Source: Companilactobacillus tucceti DSM 20183 (GTDB lineage: Bacteria; Bacillota; Bacilli; Lactobacillales; Lactobacillaceae). From it: a stretch of 54,903 nt of DNA. The notes below the pieces were generated by a model. That model saw only the letters and a program-made list of their open reading frames with translations. It was not told where the DNA came from and did no database searches. The position numbers and the translations under genes are program-made. The stretch spans positions 1 through 54,903 of the forward strand of contig NZ_AZDG01000016.1 of assembly GCF_001434665.1 (NCBI RefSeq). Reading direction: 5' to 3'. Below are positions 5,344 through 10,986 of this stretch, one piece after another. Within the stretch, counting starts at the first letter, position 1. Each line of letters opens with the position of its first letter.

Positions 5344-6282
5344 ATGAAAACTATTTCTGTGATTGTTCCCTGTTATAACGAGGAAGAATCAATCGAACTT
5401 TATTATGAAGCCATGAATAAAGTTAAAACCGAAAATAATAAATTTAACTTAGAATACTGGTTCGTCGATGATGGTTCACATGACAAAACATTTAAAGTTT
5501 TGCGTGAACTACAAAAAAAGCATAGCGACGAAGTACACTATATTTCATTCTCCAGAAACTTCGGTAAAGAATCAGCACTATATGCCGGCTTGAACGAAGC
5601 TACTGGTGAATACACTGCCGTAATGGATGTAGACCTACAAGATCCTCCTGAAATGTTAGTAAAAATGTTTGATATGTTAGAATCTGAAGACAATGACTAT
5701 GATTGTATTGGAACAGCCAGAATGGACCGAGAAGGCGAAAACCCAATTATTTCATTCTTCTCAAACTCATTTTATGGTGTGATCAATAGAATGTCACAAA
5801 CTAAAATCATTCCAGGTGCCCGTGATTATCGCTTAATGACACGTCAAATGGTCGACGCTATTCTTTCTATGACTGAATACAACCGTTTTTCAAAGGGCAT
5901 TTTTAGCTGGGTTGGATTTAAAACTAAGTACTTACCATATAAGAACAGAGAACGTGTTGCAGGTACAACTTCTTGGAACTTTTGGAAACTATTTAAGTAC
6001 GCTATAACGGGTATCGTTGACTTCACTGAACGCCCTCTTATGTTCGCAACTTGGATGGGATCAGCCTTTTCAATAGCTTCAATTGTAGCTATTATTGCTA
6101 TAATTATTAGAAAAATCATCAACCCTATGAGTAGCGTAGATGGATGGTCTTCTATGGTAACTATTATTTTACTTATTGGTGGAATACAATTATTAAGTAT
6201 TGGTATTTTAGGTGAGTATATTGGTAAAATATTCCTTGAGGTCAAAAAACGTCCAATTTATATTATTAAAGATAAAAAATAA
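5344..6282 (+). CDS. Membrane-anchored GT2 glycosyltransferase (GtrB/CsbB type)
   Basis: This 312-residue enzyme probably transfers a sugar from a nucleotide donor to undecaprenyl phosphate on the cytoplasmic face, the first step of three-component glycan or teichoic acid decoration. The GT-A domain carries SVIVPCYNEEESI at 5-17, VDDGS at 41-45 and DVDLQDPP at about 96-103. Two membrane helices lie near 235-260 and 270-295, and the KRPIYIIKDKK tail is basic. This is the layout of GtrB, CsbB and YfdH. The companion GtrA flippase and a GtrC-type transferase are not adjacent. The gene follows the coiled-coil gene in the same direction, so the two may act together. The start is ATG at 5344 with a GGAAG site. 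The actual sugar cannot be told. Confidence 0.88.
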   Translation: MKTISVIVPCYNEEESIELYYEAMNKVKTENNKFNLEYWFVDDGSHDKTFKVLRELQKKHSDEVHYISFSRNFGKESALYAGLNEATGEYTAVMDVDLQDPPEMLVKMFDMLESEDNDYDCIGTARMDREGENPIISFFSNSFYGVINRMSQTKIIPGARDYRLMTRQMVDAILSMTEYNRFSKGIFSWVGFKTKYLPYKNRERVAGTTSWNFWKLFKYAITGIVDFTERPLMFATWMGSAFSIASIVAIIAIIIRKIINPMSSVDGWSSMVTIILLIGGIQLLSIGILGEYIGKIFLEVKKRPIYIIKDKK

Positions 6283-8262: not shown

Positions 8263-9450
8263 ATGGCCCATATTTTAGTATTAGGTGCAGGTTACGGTGG
8301 ATTAAAGGCTGCTCGAGATCTAGCTAAAACTACTCCATCAGATACACAGATAGATTTAGTAGATAAAAATGAAAAACACGTAGAAAAAACAGCGTTACAC
8401 ATGATCGCTGCTGGTACAAGCAGAGCAGATGCCGTTAGTTTCGACGTTCGTTCTGTTCTCCCTTCAAACGTCAACTTCATCAAGGCTACTGTTAAAAACA
8501 TAGATCTTGATAATAAATCAGTTAGTTTCGAAGATCACGACGATATTTCTTATGACTACGTAATCGTAGCTCTAGGATTCAGATCAGAAGACTTCGGACT
8601 TGAGGGAGCAAGTGAAAATGCTCTTATCCTTCAAGATATTGAAACTGCTGAAAATATCTACAAGAAAATCAACGAAAACATTGCTAACTACAAGGAATCA
8701 CAAAATGAAGCTGATCTAAGCATCATCGTATGTGGTGCTGGTTTTACTGGTGTTGAAATTCTTGGTGAATTGATAGATACAGCTAAAATTCTTAAAGCAA
8801 AATACGGTGTTCCGGAAATTAAAGTTACATGTCTAGAAATGGCAACACATATTCTTCCAATGTTTGACGAAGGACTTGCTAATTACGCCGTTTCATTCCT
8901 AGAAAAACATGGTATCAAGATCTTAACTGGTGCCAAAATTACTAAGATCGAAAAAGATGGCGTTATCTACATGGATGGCGAAGAAGAAAAACGTGTTGAT
9001 GGTAGCACGATCATTTGGACAGTTGGTGTCAGTGGTAGTGACGTTATCAAAGATTCTGGACTTGAAGCTAGAAGAAATCGTGTAATGACAACATCATTCT
9101 TGAATCTTGAAGATCATCCAGAAGCATTCTTCATCGGTGATGATTCTGCTATGATTCCAGAAGGTGAAGAACGTCCACTTCCAACAACAGGTCAATTGGC
9201 TATTGCTGAAGGTACTGGCGCAGCATTCAACGTTGCAGCTTCAATTAATGGTAAAGATCTTAAGAAGTTTGTATACCACTCACTAGGTACAATTGCTTCA
9301 TTAGGTCAAAATCATGGTATTGCTGAAATTACAGATAAGAAATTGAAGTTCAAGGGCTTCCCTGCTTCACTTCTAAAACGTGGATCAGCTGACAGAAGTA
9401 TTTACGAAGTTGCCGGTATCAAGACAGCTATCAAAAAGGGTACAATTTAA
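8263..9450 (+). CDS. ndh: Type II NADH dehydrogenase (NDH-2)
   Basis: This single-subunit peripheral membrane flavoprotein oxidises NADH and reduces a quinone without pumping protons. The 395-residue protein has the FAD-binding GAGYGGLKAARDL at 8-20, a second Rossmann motif IIVCGAGFTGVEILGEL near 165-181 for NADH, and a C-terminal FIGDDSAM FAD loop near 288. It lacks an obvious transmembrane helix, as expected. In lactobacilli such enzymes feed either cytochrome bd or the EetA/EetB extracellular electron transfer route through demethylmenaquinone. The prenyl genes at the left of the window support a quinone link, but no cytochrome or eet gene is visible here. The start is ATG at 8263 with a GAAGGAGA site. 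A TATAAT at 8211-8216 may be its -10. A strong terminator follows at once. Confidence 0.93.
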   Translation: MAHILVLGAGYGGLKAARDLAKTTPSDTQIDLVDKNEKHVEKTALHMIAAGTSRADAVSFDVRSVLPSNVNFIKATVKNIDLDNKSVSFEDHDDISYDYVIVALGFRSEDFGLEGASENALILQDIETAENIYKKINENIANYKESQNEADLSIIVCGAGFTGVEILGELIDTAKILKAKYGVPEIKVTCLEMATHILPMFDEGLANYAVSFLEKHGIKILTGAKITKIEKDGVIYMDGEEEKRVDGSTIIWTVGVSGSDVIKDSGLEARRNRVMTTSFLNLEDHPEAFFIGDDSAMIPEGEERPLPTTGQLAIAEGTGAAFNVAASINGKDLKKFVYHSLGTIASLGQNHGIAEITDKKLKFKGFPASLLKRGSADRSIYEVAGIKTAIKKGTI

Positions 9451-9456
9451 AACACA

Positions 9457-9486
9457 AAAAAGCCTCAAGTTTTGAGGCTTTTTTTA
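9457..9486 (+). terminator. Terminator of ndh
   Basis: AGCCTCAA (9461-9468) pairs with TTGAGGCT (9472-9479), preceded by an A-run and followed by seven T. It is a canonical intrinsic terminator usable on the plus strand and possibly on both. Confidence 0.9.
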
Positions 9487-9493
9487 TTTGCAT

Positions 9494-9614
9494 AAAAAAA
9501 ATCCTGCACATATATGCAGGATCAGTTGGTAAACTGCGGCGACCTTCCGAACGTTTTCACGCAGATCACGTACATTTACCTGGTTTGGCACCTCCAGTAG
9601 TATCGCACGCAACT
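9494..9614 (-). ncRNA. Structured RNA element with its own terminator, family unknown
   Basis: Immediately downstream of amt on the minus strand lies about 120 nt that folds compactly. P1 is AGUUG (9614-9610) with CAACU (9528-9524). P2 is CUGG (9597-9594) with CCAG (9583-9580). P3 is GUAAA (9579-9575) with UUUAC (9533-9529), continued by P4, CUGCG (9564-9560) with CGCAG (9538-9534). P2 abuts P3 and P3 abuts P1 with no linker, giving a three-way junction. GCGA (9606-9603) could form a pseudoknot with UCGC (9542-9539). A perfect 8-bp hairpin, ATCCTGCA/TGCAGGAT (9522-9501), followed by a U-run then ends the transcript. No gene follows in that direction, so it is either a stand-alone sRNA or a structured amt 3' UTR. 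It does not match the SRP, tmRNA, 6S or riboswitch cores I know. Confidence 0.55.
9501..9522 (-). terminator. Terminator of amt or of the structured RNA
   Basis: ATCCTGCA (9501-9508) and TGCAGGAT (9515-9522) form a perfect 8-bp stem around a 6-nt loop. On the minus strand it is followed by seven U, from the A-run at 9494-9500. Confidence 0.85.
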
Positions 9615-9619
9615 ATACA

Positions 9620-10810
9620 TCAAGTCAATTTAATATGTTTTAAATCACCCAACTCAGGACTATAAATATCATCTTTAAAGAATCTCTTTAAACCTGATAC
9701 GATCAAACAATTTAAAATGACAACAAAAACGATCGTAAATAGTACACCGAGTGTTTGAACTAATAATAGTCTAAATCCACCACCGACTAGTAATCCATTA
9801 TTGATAACATTTGGATTTACAGCTTTAGTAGCAAATAACCCAGTTGTTAAAGATCCGATGATCCCACTAACACCATGGGAACCAAAGATGTCTAGGTAAT
9901 CATTGATATGAAGTTTATATTTTAAACTATTCATAAAGTAAAAACTCCCTATTGACGAAACCACACCGATAATAAGCGCAGCTGTTATCGTCACATAACC
10001 TGCGGCTGGGGTTACACCAACTAAACCACATATTGTACCCGTACAAATGCCGCTCAGCGTTATTTCTTTCTTATAGGTATTCTCTAAAGCAATCCACGTT
10101 AGCATGGCTGACAATGGAGCTATGGTCGTTGTCATAAAAGCCTGAATAGCTTGCGCATTTAATGAAAGAGCACTACCTGCATTAAATCCATACCATCCTA
10201 TCCACAATAGCGCCGTTCCCATTAAAATCCAAAAAGAATTTCCATTTGGGTGTTCAGTCGGTTTGTATGGTTTCAATAAGAAATTTGATAAAACTAAGGC
10301 AGTTATTCCTGCATCAATATGAATAACAGTACCTCCGGCAAAATCCATTACCCCCATTCTGGCAAGAAATCCATCGCTAGACCAAACCATATGTACCAAT
10401 GGATAATAAATTAAAAGTGACCATAAAATTATAAATCCAATAACAAATTTTATTCTAGTACGGTTGGCAATAGCTCCAATAAAAAGGGCCGGTGTCAAAA
10501 TAGCAAACATCATCTGAAATAAAACTACTACCTCGGTAGGTAATTTTGTCATTCCAAACATTGCCGTCATATTTATTCCAGACAAAAACAAATGATTAAA
10601 ATTTCCTATAATACCAAAATGATTTCCTTCAAATGCGGCTGAATAACCTACTAATATCCACATAAGACCAGCTATACCAAACATTAAAAAACTATCAAAT
10701 AAAATCCTAGTGATATTGCTTTTAGGAACAAATCCACCATAGAAAACTGCAATCCCTGGAGTCATAATCCACACCAATAGTGTAGCCAAAACCATAAACA
10801 CAATACTCAT
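9620..10810 (-). CDS. amt: Ammonium transporter (Amt family)
   Basis: Amt proteins form trimers in the membrane that take up ammonium. This 396-residue protein has about 11 hydrophobic helices and both pore histidine contexts: DFAGGTVIHIDAG near 155 and FGSHGVSGIIGSL near 310. The residue after the first pore histidine context is Asp (HIDAG) where many homologues have Asn (HINAG), a small deviation. The frame could open at GTG 10819, but that codon overlaps the AAGGGTG Shine-Dalgarno; the ATG at 10810 has about 8 bp spacing and is preferred. The usual partner, a PII protein (GlnK/GlnB), is not adjacent on either side. The structured RNA element follows its stop codon directly. Confidence 0.93.
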   Translation of the reverse strand: MSIVFMVLATLLVWIMTPGIAVFYGGFVPKSNITRILFDSFLMFGIAGLMWILVGYSAAFEGNHFGIIGNFNHLFLSGINMTAMFGMTKLPTEVVVLFQMMFAILTPALFIGAIANRTRIKFVIGFIILWSLLIYYPLVHMVWSSDGFLARMGVMDFAGGTVIHIDAGITALVLSNFLLKPYKPTEHPNGNSFWILMGTALLWIGWYGFNAGSALSLNAQAIQAFMTTTIAPLSAMLTWIALENTYKKEITLSGICTGTICGLVGVTPAAGYVTITAALIIGVVSSIGSFYFMNSLKYKLHINDYLDIFGSHGVSGIIGSLTTGLFATKAVNPNVINNGLLVGGGFRLLLVQTLGVLFTIVFVVILNCLIVSGLKRFFKDDIYSPELGDLKHIKLT

Positions 10811-10925
10811 CAGTATCACACCCTTAATTATTTAATGGTTGTGATTGTACTTCTTTTGAGATGAGAGGTATACCAATTTGACTTCACCACTTAAAATTTA
10901 TTTAATTTATCAGTATACATATTAT

Positions 10926-10954
10926 TTGTTTAAACATTAGATAAGTATTATTAT
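10926..10954 (+). promoter_or_regulatory. Candidate promoter of the DUF1003-kup operon
   Basis: TTGTTT (10926-10931) and TATTAT (10949-10954) are spaced by 17 bp, about 32 bp before the ATG at 10987. A small inverted repeat, GATAA/TTATC, overlaps the -10. I see no c-di-AMP riboswitch core in this leader. Confidence 0.45.
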
Positions 10955-10986
10955 CTATGTGAATTTATACAAAGGAGGTTAGTAAA

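Follow-up and report, generated by a model that had tools for sequence, protein, structure and literature searches.

What is encoded on the minus strand between the convergent genes ndh and amt of Companilactobacillus tucceti DSM 20183? The window analysed here is the whole stretch of 54,903 nt of contig NZ_AZDG01000016.1 (assembly GCF_001434665.1), and a preliminary description of it had proposed a compact RNA at 9494–9614, folded as a three-way junction with its own terminator, which might be a trans-acting sRNA, a product processed from the amt mRNA or a structured 3′ UTR controlling amt stability. On comparative sequence evidence the element is a free-standing gene for a small non-coding RNA, one whose family is absent from Rfam 15, and it is almost certainly a real gene that has been conserved. 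A promoter-like site, a structured non-coding body and an intrinsic terminator follow one another on the minus strand between the two convergent genes (Table 1).

Table 1. Features of the small RNA locus in the window, with positions counted from the first nucleotide of the window.
Feature	Positions	Strand	Remarks
ndh	8263–9450	+	Convergent neighbour
amt (ammonium-transporter-like)	9620–10819	−	Identity presumed from the name given in the preliminary description; 3′ end carries the −35 box; outside the RNA
−35 box TTGACT	9623–9628	−	Last two sense codons (Leu-Thr) of amt; TTGAC conserved in homologues
Extended −10 box TGCGATACT, hexamer GATACT	9599–9604	−	Ends at 9599
Predicted transcript, ~99 nt	9494–9592	−	Start predicted from the −10 box; U-run taken as the end
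Near-invariant 5′ element GGUGCCAAACC	9582–9592	−	Mini-hairpin P1 (GGU-GCCAA-ACC); exact antisense of 23S local positions 2507–2517
Long bulged hairpin P2-P3-P4	9528–9580	−	Folding and covariation
P2	9580–9574 with 9534–9528	−	Long hairpin
P3	9569–9564 with 9544–9539	−	Long hairpin
P4	9563–9559 with 9554–9550	−	Long hairpin
Tetraloop GAAA	9558–9555	−	Apex of the long hairpin
5-nt bulge CGGAA	9549–9545	−	Long hairpin
Intrinsic terminator stem-loop	9500–9523	−	U-run after the stem ends at 9494

The terminator hairpin with its U-run reported previously is indeed present (stem 9523–9500), so that the small RNA gene in the window possesses an intrinsic terminator of its own, and no gene follows on the minus strand before the convergent ndh, again as described. 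A T-run comes after the hairpin in most of the homologues listed, with none nearby in loci such as L220 and L129. A second, symmetric terminator hairpin lies at 9456–9484 in the window, with a minus-strand T-run after it and an A-run before it; it is probably the terminator of the convergent ndh and a second stop for the small RNA behind its own terminator. At the upstream end, the promoter match in the window taken alone is no better than chance (one found against 1.5 expected in shuffled sequences), and its weight comes instead from conservation, a sigma-70-type promoter being common to the homologues of the gene. Given this shared promoter, we read 9614–9593 as promoter DNA and not as RNA, which shifts the 5′ boundary from the vicinity of 9614, where it had been placed, to a predicted start at 9592.

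A BLAST search of 150 relatives yielded 29 genomes with a match, 11 of which had short matches only and were dropped. An RNA with the 11-mer GGTGCCAAACC is present in 18 of the 29, and TTGAC and NATACT boxes stand upstream of the RNA in every one of these 18 homologues. A covariance model built from them (R1) recovers the RNA in 34 of 36 Companilactobacillus genomes and in 130 of 397 Lactobacillaceae genomes, covering 12 of 40 genera, with one match per genome. The genus genomes lacking an R1 match are G001, which is full-size and a single contig, and G034, which is small (1.5 Mb). A wider model (R2), applied to 395 genomes of the order, finds the RNA in 128, which represent 30 of 80 genera; two or three matches occur in 15 of them. 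In the class it finds the RNA in four of 348 genomes, all four of which fall inside the order. The RNA is thereby found under six family labels of one order and is usually single-copy per genome. A pattern scan of named genomes gave at least 119 loci; among the matches listed are Levilactobacillus, Lactiplantibacillus, Lacticaseibacillus, Lentilactobacillus, Secundilactobacillus and Ligilactobacillus, as well as Enterococcus, Vagococcus, Carnobacterium, Listeria kieliensis and MAGs of Streptococcaceae. A pattern match in Neptunicoccus (L191) was taken as likely chance, and the plasmid and phage collections gave no match to the window RNA, so that a copy carried on such an element was discarded as a candidate. 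All statistics on the 11-mer given below rest on 94 rows, corresponding to 87 distinct copies, which were found by the model or by a BLAST-started model and form a subset of all model matches; the pattern matches L123–L244 contain the 11-mer by construction and were left out. Three weak matches (L149:1982, L162:2702 and L151:5011) were dropped at E ≤ 0.01, with 64 sources used instead of 68.

The earlier reader had recognised no SRP, 6S, tmRNA or riboswitch core in the element and had proposed an Rfam search, and the absence of a known core is borne out: no family of Rfam 15 reaches the gathering score anywhere in the window, and none covers the RNA in 15 distinct homologous loci. In eight homologous loci scanned at gathering the matches are to tRNA, T-box and TPP, none of them on the RNA, and in eight scanned at E ≤ 0.1 only tRNA appears, together with a sub-cut-off RsmY match elsewhere in L273. 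The best sub-cut-off match, to the Bacillus sRNA ncr1175 (RF02450), was rejected; it scores 30.0 bits against a gathering value of 60 and aligns the two terminator hairpins (9523–9452), not the RNA body. No description of the small RNA was found in the titles and abstract starts of the literature searched, and supplementary or RNA-seq tables may list copies.

That this stretch of the minus strand is structured and non-coding, as first proposed, is supported by folding as well as by the homologues in other genomes. The segment 9496–9595 gives z = −4.05, and 9490–9620, which approximates the stretch originally described, gives z = −2.46; none of 200 shuffles was as stable in either case. The shape of the RNA has to be redrawn, however: in place of a three-way junction, the conserved fold consists of a 5′ mini-hairpin, one long hairpin with a 5-nt bulge and a terminator hairpin, arranged in a row. 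The helix formerly named P1 (AGUUG/CAACU) has its 5′ strand upstream of the −10 box and forms five of five pairs only in the window, with zero to three in the other 17 aligned loci. The GCGA of a possible GCGA/UCGC pseudoknot overlaps the −10 box and so lies outside the predicted RNA, and the CUGG/CCAG pairing also draws on bases upstream of the predicted start. CUGCG/CGCAG is not a conserved pairing, CUGCG being composed of the last 5′ base of P3 and four 5′ bases of P4, and CGCAG spanning the inner loop into the 3′ strand of P2. The GUAAA/UUUAC pairing is conserved and persists as part of P2. Family-wide, the apical loop is small and in many copies GNRA-like, and the bulge has the form YNGAA and faces a conserved GG. 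In many of the tRNA-linked copies described below, and in several others, the long hairpin itself runs into the T-run with no separate terminator. The conserved GG facing UUYNGAA near a small, often GNRA-like loop recalls T-loop/D-loop-like contacts.

Covariation among homologues, which the preliminary description had named as a check, is strong. In A3, a MAFFT alignment of 18 sequences made without structure, the consensus of which afterwards supplied the structure, both sides have changed in 10 of 21 pairs, 98.1% of cells pair, and the covariation score is 0.384, whereas shuffles give 0.222 and slid controls do not exceed 0.120; the measure of further pair types does not rise above shuffles in this alignment (420 of 500 as high). 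Two further alignments were fitted to the model and hence lean towards it: A6, with 64 sequences, shows changes on both sides in 15 of 21 pairs (27 of 500 shuffles as high) and a score of 0.672 against 0.228, and A7, with 42 other sequences including three pattern-found viral contigs, shows 16 of 21 pairs and 0.670 against 0.249. The covariation score beats all 500 shuffles and every slid control in A3, A6 and A7 alike. An internal pseudoknot between the loop GCCAA and a hairpin sequence UUGGC fits many copies, and was rejected on finding that the hairpin side varies (UCGGC, CUGGC and others) and the loop is constant. A small protein-coding ORF was likewise dismissed: the cores are 67–70 nt long, so the reading frame shifts between relatives, and stops occur in three of 18. 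A GTG-start frame (VPN...) inside the 11-mer does stay open in 15 of the 18 aligned copies, these frame shifts notwithstanding, and is probably a by-product of composition.

The RNA occurs in two genomic forms. Promoter-type copies make up 49 of the 87 distinct copies, all in Lactobacillaceae; six (L112, L044, L081, L084, L088 and L101) were classed as such from their sequences. In a promoter scan that takes the best of 32 placements, at least eight of the 12 hexamer bases are matched in 48 of these 49, as against at most six in 37 of the other 38 copies and seven in the remaining one, and the best-scoring −10 ends 6–7 nt before the 11-mer in 46 of the 49. The gene thus has what is expected of an autonomous unit, its own promoter at a fixed distance from the conserved body. 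Most of the 38 other copies lie just after tRNA-Lys(CUU), and nearly all sampled loci outside Lactobacillaceae have the RNA directly behind this tRNA. ARAGORN calls tRNA-Lys(CUU) in 21 of 24 loci (missing L128, L242 and L243) and, in a further set, in 33 of 35 (missing L250 and L284); all five misses retain the 3′ part of a tRNA ahead of the RNA. In 51 of 52 loci the RNA model begins 0–2 nt past the end of the called tRNA; the exception is L267, at 6 nt. In the tRNA-linked genomes the RNA lies in the 3′ flank of the tRNA; in the window amt is upstream instead. Among the distinct Lactobacillaceae copies examined, 49 of 51 stand apart from the tRNA, and promoter boxes accompany nearly all of these. 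The family pattern does not hold for the tRNA-linked Ligilactobacillus copies L161, L205 and L212, nor for an Enterococcus MAG copy, L215, which shows no tRNA; extra copies without an intact tRNA are found in L273, L274 and L283.

Some of these loci have further features. In L283, from an Enterococcaceae genome, three 154-nt direct repeats (2569–2722, 5874–6027 and 10819–10972) each combine a tRNA-Lys-like sequence with the RNA; the repeats flank ORFs of 477 aa and then of 328 and 634 aa, and an intact tRNA is called in the first repeat only. The arrangement looks like cargo inserted at, and restoring, the tRNA–RNA site. Three contigs of a viral collection (L242 944–1012, L243 8442–8510 and L244 8556–8624) carry the 3′ part of a tRNA together with the RNA. 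In L242 and L243 the RNA adjoins a 413-aa ORF and another ORF, which we take from their sequences to be integrase-like (the 413-aa ORF) and an IS30-like transposase, and the copies there suggest a prophage attachment point.

The neighbourhood of amt itself is incidental, as, of the 32 genomes of the genus compared, four have amt beside the RNA and 14 a ClC-type channel gene, with neither seen there in the remaining 14 (all positive genomes except G004 and G014, out of 34; flanks of 1.5–4 kb, some ending at a contig end). The earlier proposal to look for the element next to amt in close relatives therefore has a divided outcome: the RNA is conserved in them, and adjacency to amt holds in only four of 32. 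The same figure speaks against processing of the RNA from the amt mRNA.

The most constrained part of the RNA is its 5′ end. Of the 87 distinct copies, 81 have the 11-mer GGUGCCAAACC without any change, a count biased towards copies that keep it since the search models contained the 11-mer, and the flanking bases on either side take all four letters. The pair just outside it in the 81 copies is G-C in 35, U-A in 12, C-G in seven, U-G in six and unpaired in 21, so that P1 is extended in many copies, not all; in enterococci, the hairpin-closing G-C lies outside the rRNA complementarity and serves the hairpin only. The complement of the element, GGTTTGGCACC, occurs exactly at two places in the 2.17-Mb genome of the window (G000), the RNA gene and the 23S rRNA. 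The 23S site, at local positions 2507–2517, is antisense to the 11-mer and lies beside the peptidyl-transferase centre. We take it to be a strand of helix 89 that immediately precedes the peptidyl-transferase loop on the 5′ side; in the mature 50S subunit this strand is presumably paired in helix 89, buried and not free. The chance of an exact 11-mer complement in that 23S rRNA is about 0.0007, a figure that flatters the match because the rRNA was compared after the 11-mer had been noticed. Of 34 rRNA loci, the site is readable in 28, which come from 12 genomes (Enterococcus mundtii, Carnobacterium and a Listeriaceae genome among them), and it is identical in all 28; six loci were masked fragments. 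The duplex has an energy of −21.0 kcal/mol, and none of 300 shuffled elements does as well against the same rRNA. When the predicted 99-nt RNA is cofolded with the rRNA segment, the gain over the separate folds is 10.6 kcal/mol, rising to 15.7 kcal/mol with three more 5′ bases. At the DNA level the complementarity to 23S in the window extends to 13 nt (GAGGTGCCAAACC), the first two bases of which precede the predicted start. A naked 67-nt rRNA segment folds to a complementary hairpin, GAGGU-UUGGC-ACCUC, and a 120-nt segment does not.

The exceptions to the 11-mer differ in kind. In L040 and the second copy in L273 one base differs and a G-U pair is kept both with the rRNA and in P1, and in L104 a changed loop base breaks one rRNA pair and leaves the P1 hairpin intact. 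Three divergent, tRNA-linked copies have an altered 11-mer (L267 2500–2567, L268 2366–2434 and L269 2487–2555): a new hairpin stands in its place in L267 and L268, with loss of the rRNA complementarity, and the changed element of L269 has no exact rRNA match. All three have drifted in the bulge and lost its usual form, which is possibly decay or a change of partner; the 23S rRNA of G112, the genome of L268, is unchanged at the site. Allowing at most one mismatch, complement sites number 43 on the two strands of G000, including the two exact ones in the gene and in 23S; the reversed pattern gives 11. An excess over the reversed pattern is seen in five of six genomes, the Listeriaceae genome G566 being different (24 vs 29), and mRNA partners therefore have to be considered.

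Our preferred reading, to which we assign a probability of roughly one in three, is a trans-acting RNA that uses its 5′ element, with 23S rRNA pairing as the putative mechanism. Action in trans through the 5′ element is likely in itself, and the option of a trans-acting sRNA raised at the outset gains indirect support from the gene's own promoter, its own terminator and conservation that is independent of its neighbours. Pairing with 23S rRNA would be the most specific hypothesis, with odds of between one in four and one in three; the changed 11-mer letters of the three divergent copies speak against it, as do the hairpin nature of the 11-mer itself, the loop change in L104, the enterococcal closing pair that serves the hairpin only, and the presumed pairing of the rRNA strand within helix 89 of mature subunits. 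An RNA of the ordinary trans-acting kind would pair short sites in several mRNAs through the same element, altering their translation or stability, and would make the 23S match a coincidence. A 5′-end seed followed by a terminator hairpin is the usual build of trans-acting sRNAs and is the build seen here, and the 43 sites with up to one mismatch in G000, against 11 reversed, may include targets, although that excess may also reflect codon usage. However, mRNA seeds usually drift between genera, and this one is exact in nearly all distinct copies, and G000 has no exact 11-nt site other than 23S and the gene. We regard this reading as possible, though less likely than not. We also hold as possible, and no more firmly than that, a protein-binding role, in which both hairpins, the 5′ one and the bulged one, would serve as recognition sites (in sequestration or in a small ribonucleoprotein) and pairing with another RNA would be dispensable. 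The outer P1 pair is G-C, U-A or C-G in 54 of 81 copies, L267 swaps letters with pairing kept, and the asymmetric YNGAA bulge and opposed GG are highly conserved, as they would be in a protein or tertiary site; such a binder would nevertheless have to read the loop plus all three stem pairs, and no common neighbour gene marks the locus within the genus (amt, ndh and one ClC gene were checked).

Two readings confined to cis fare less well. The RNA could be a 3′ trailer and terminator of tRNA-Lys(CUU) that aids tRNA processing and was later dispersed without a function in trans, which would account for the tight spacing behind the tRNA and for the hairpin there usually ending in a T-run. This we consider improbable, as the Lactobacillaceae copies that have left the tRNA are under the same sequence constraint and a terminator has no need of a near-invariant 11-mer. 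Least probable is the structured 3′ UTR controlling amt mRNA that the preliminary description had entertained. The RNA does lie directly downstream of amt in four genomes of the genus, and in the window the −35 box overlaps the amt 3′ end, but comparison of the remaining 28 genomes of the genus showed no amt next to it, and a promoter and terminator of its own make the RNA a separate unit.

If pairing with 23S rRNA is indeed what the 5′ element does, the following course can be envisaged. Where the RNA is linked to the tRNA, cleavage by RNase Z at the 3′ end of the tRNA would leave the RNA with almost the 5′ end that the promoter sets in Lactobacillaceae, from which we infer that function depends on a 5′ end at GGUGCCAAACC. 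The 5′ mini-hairpin would present the loop GCCAA and then open into an 11-bp duplex with 5′-GGUUUGGCACC-3′ of 23S rRNA, or one of 13 bp in this species should the transcript start two bases earlier than predicted. As the naked rRNA segment can fold to a complementary hairpin, contact may begin with a loop–loop kiss with GAGGU-UUGGC-ACCUC, followed by zipping up. Pairing would be most plausible on an immature or broken 50S subunit in which helix 89 is open, and the long hairpin may stabilise the RNA or bind a protein. Taken furthest, and unlikely on balance, the model is that of an RNA found across the order and antisense to the peptidyl-transferase region. After a kissing contact, its 5′ hairpin would pair with the strand of helix 89, and the RNA would chaperone, hold back or monitor the final step in assembly of the 50S subunit, or would flag broken subunits; its synthesis would be coupled to that of tRNA-Lys where the two are linked and driven by a separate promoter in Lactobacillaceae.

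Whatever its partner, a structured RNA absent from Rfam 15 is widely kept in lactic-acid bacteria and their relatives, and because the tRNA-linked and free forms place nearly the same 5′ end, the 5′ element offers a clear handle for experiments. Were the 23S pairing true, this would be, to our knowledge, the first genome-encoded bacterial RNA aimed at the catalytic region of the ribosome, and RNA-guided ribosome assembly in bacteria would become directly testable.

Several known systems invite comparison. RNAs of the 3′ETS-leuZ type are tRNA 3′ external transcribed spacers that act as sRNA sponges in E. coli, and the tRNA-linked form resembles them in being made from the 3′ flank of a tRNA transcript; the present family differs in being structured, in spanning six family labels and in its detachment from the tRNA in 49 of 51 Lactobacillaceae copies. 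With RoxS/RsaE, trans-acting base-pairing sRNAs of Firmicutes, the RNA shares its short length, its own promoter, an intrinsic terminator and a conserved putative pairing element, whereas that element is not C-rich, sits in a 5′ mini-hairpin and has its exact complement in 23S rRNA and not in mRNA. If the 23S pairing is real, the closest analogue would be the small nucleolar RNAs of eukaryotes and archaea, which pair with rRNA; these have a C/D or H/ACA architecture, which we do not claim for the window RNA, and we know of no guide machinery of that kind in bacteria.

Two other RNAs come from the same bacterial groups or carry a similar association. The 23S-methyl RNA motif (RF01065), named in PMC7724050, is likewise conserved in enterococci and their relatives and is connected with 23S rRNA through its name, but neither the window nor the scanned homologous loci match RF01065. 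PMC8414754 notes that 6S RNA (SsrS) and tRNA-Lys are likely one transcript in some Streptococcaceae. Thus the 6S RNA of lactic-acid bacteria is also, in some species, a regulatory RNA beside a tRNA-Lys gene (PMC8414754); the loci of our RNA give no 6S match, and the order of the two genes is reversed, the tRNA lying downstream of 6S in that account and upstream of the RNA in the family described here.
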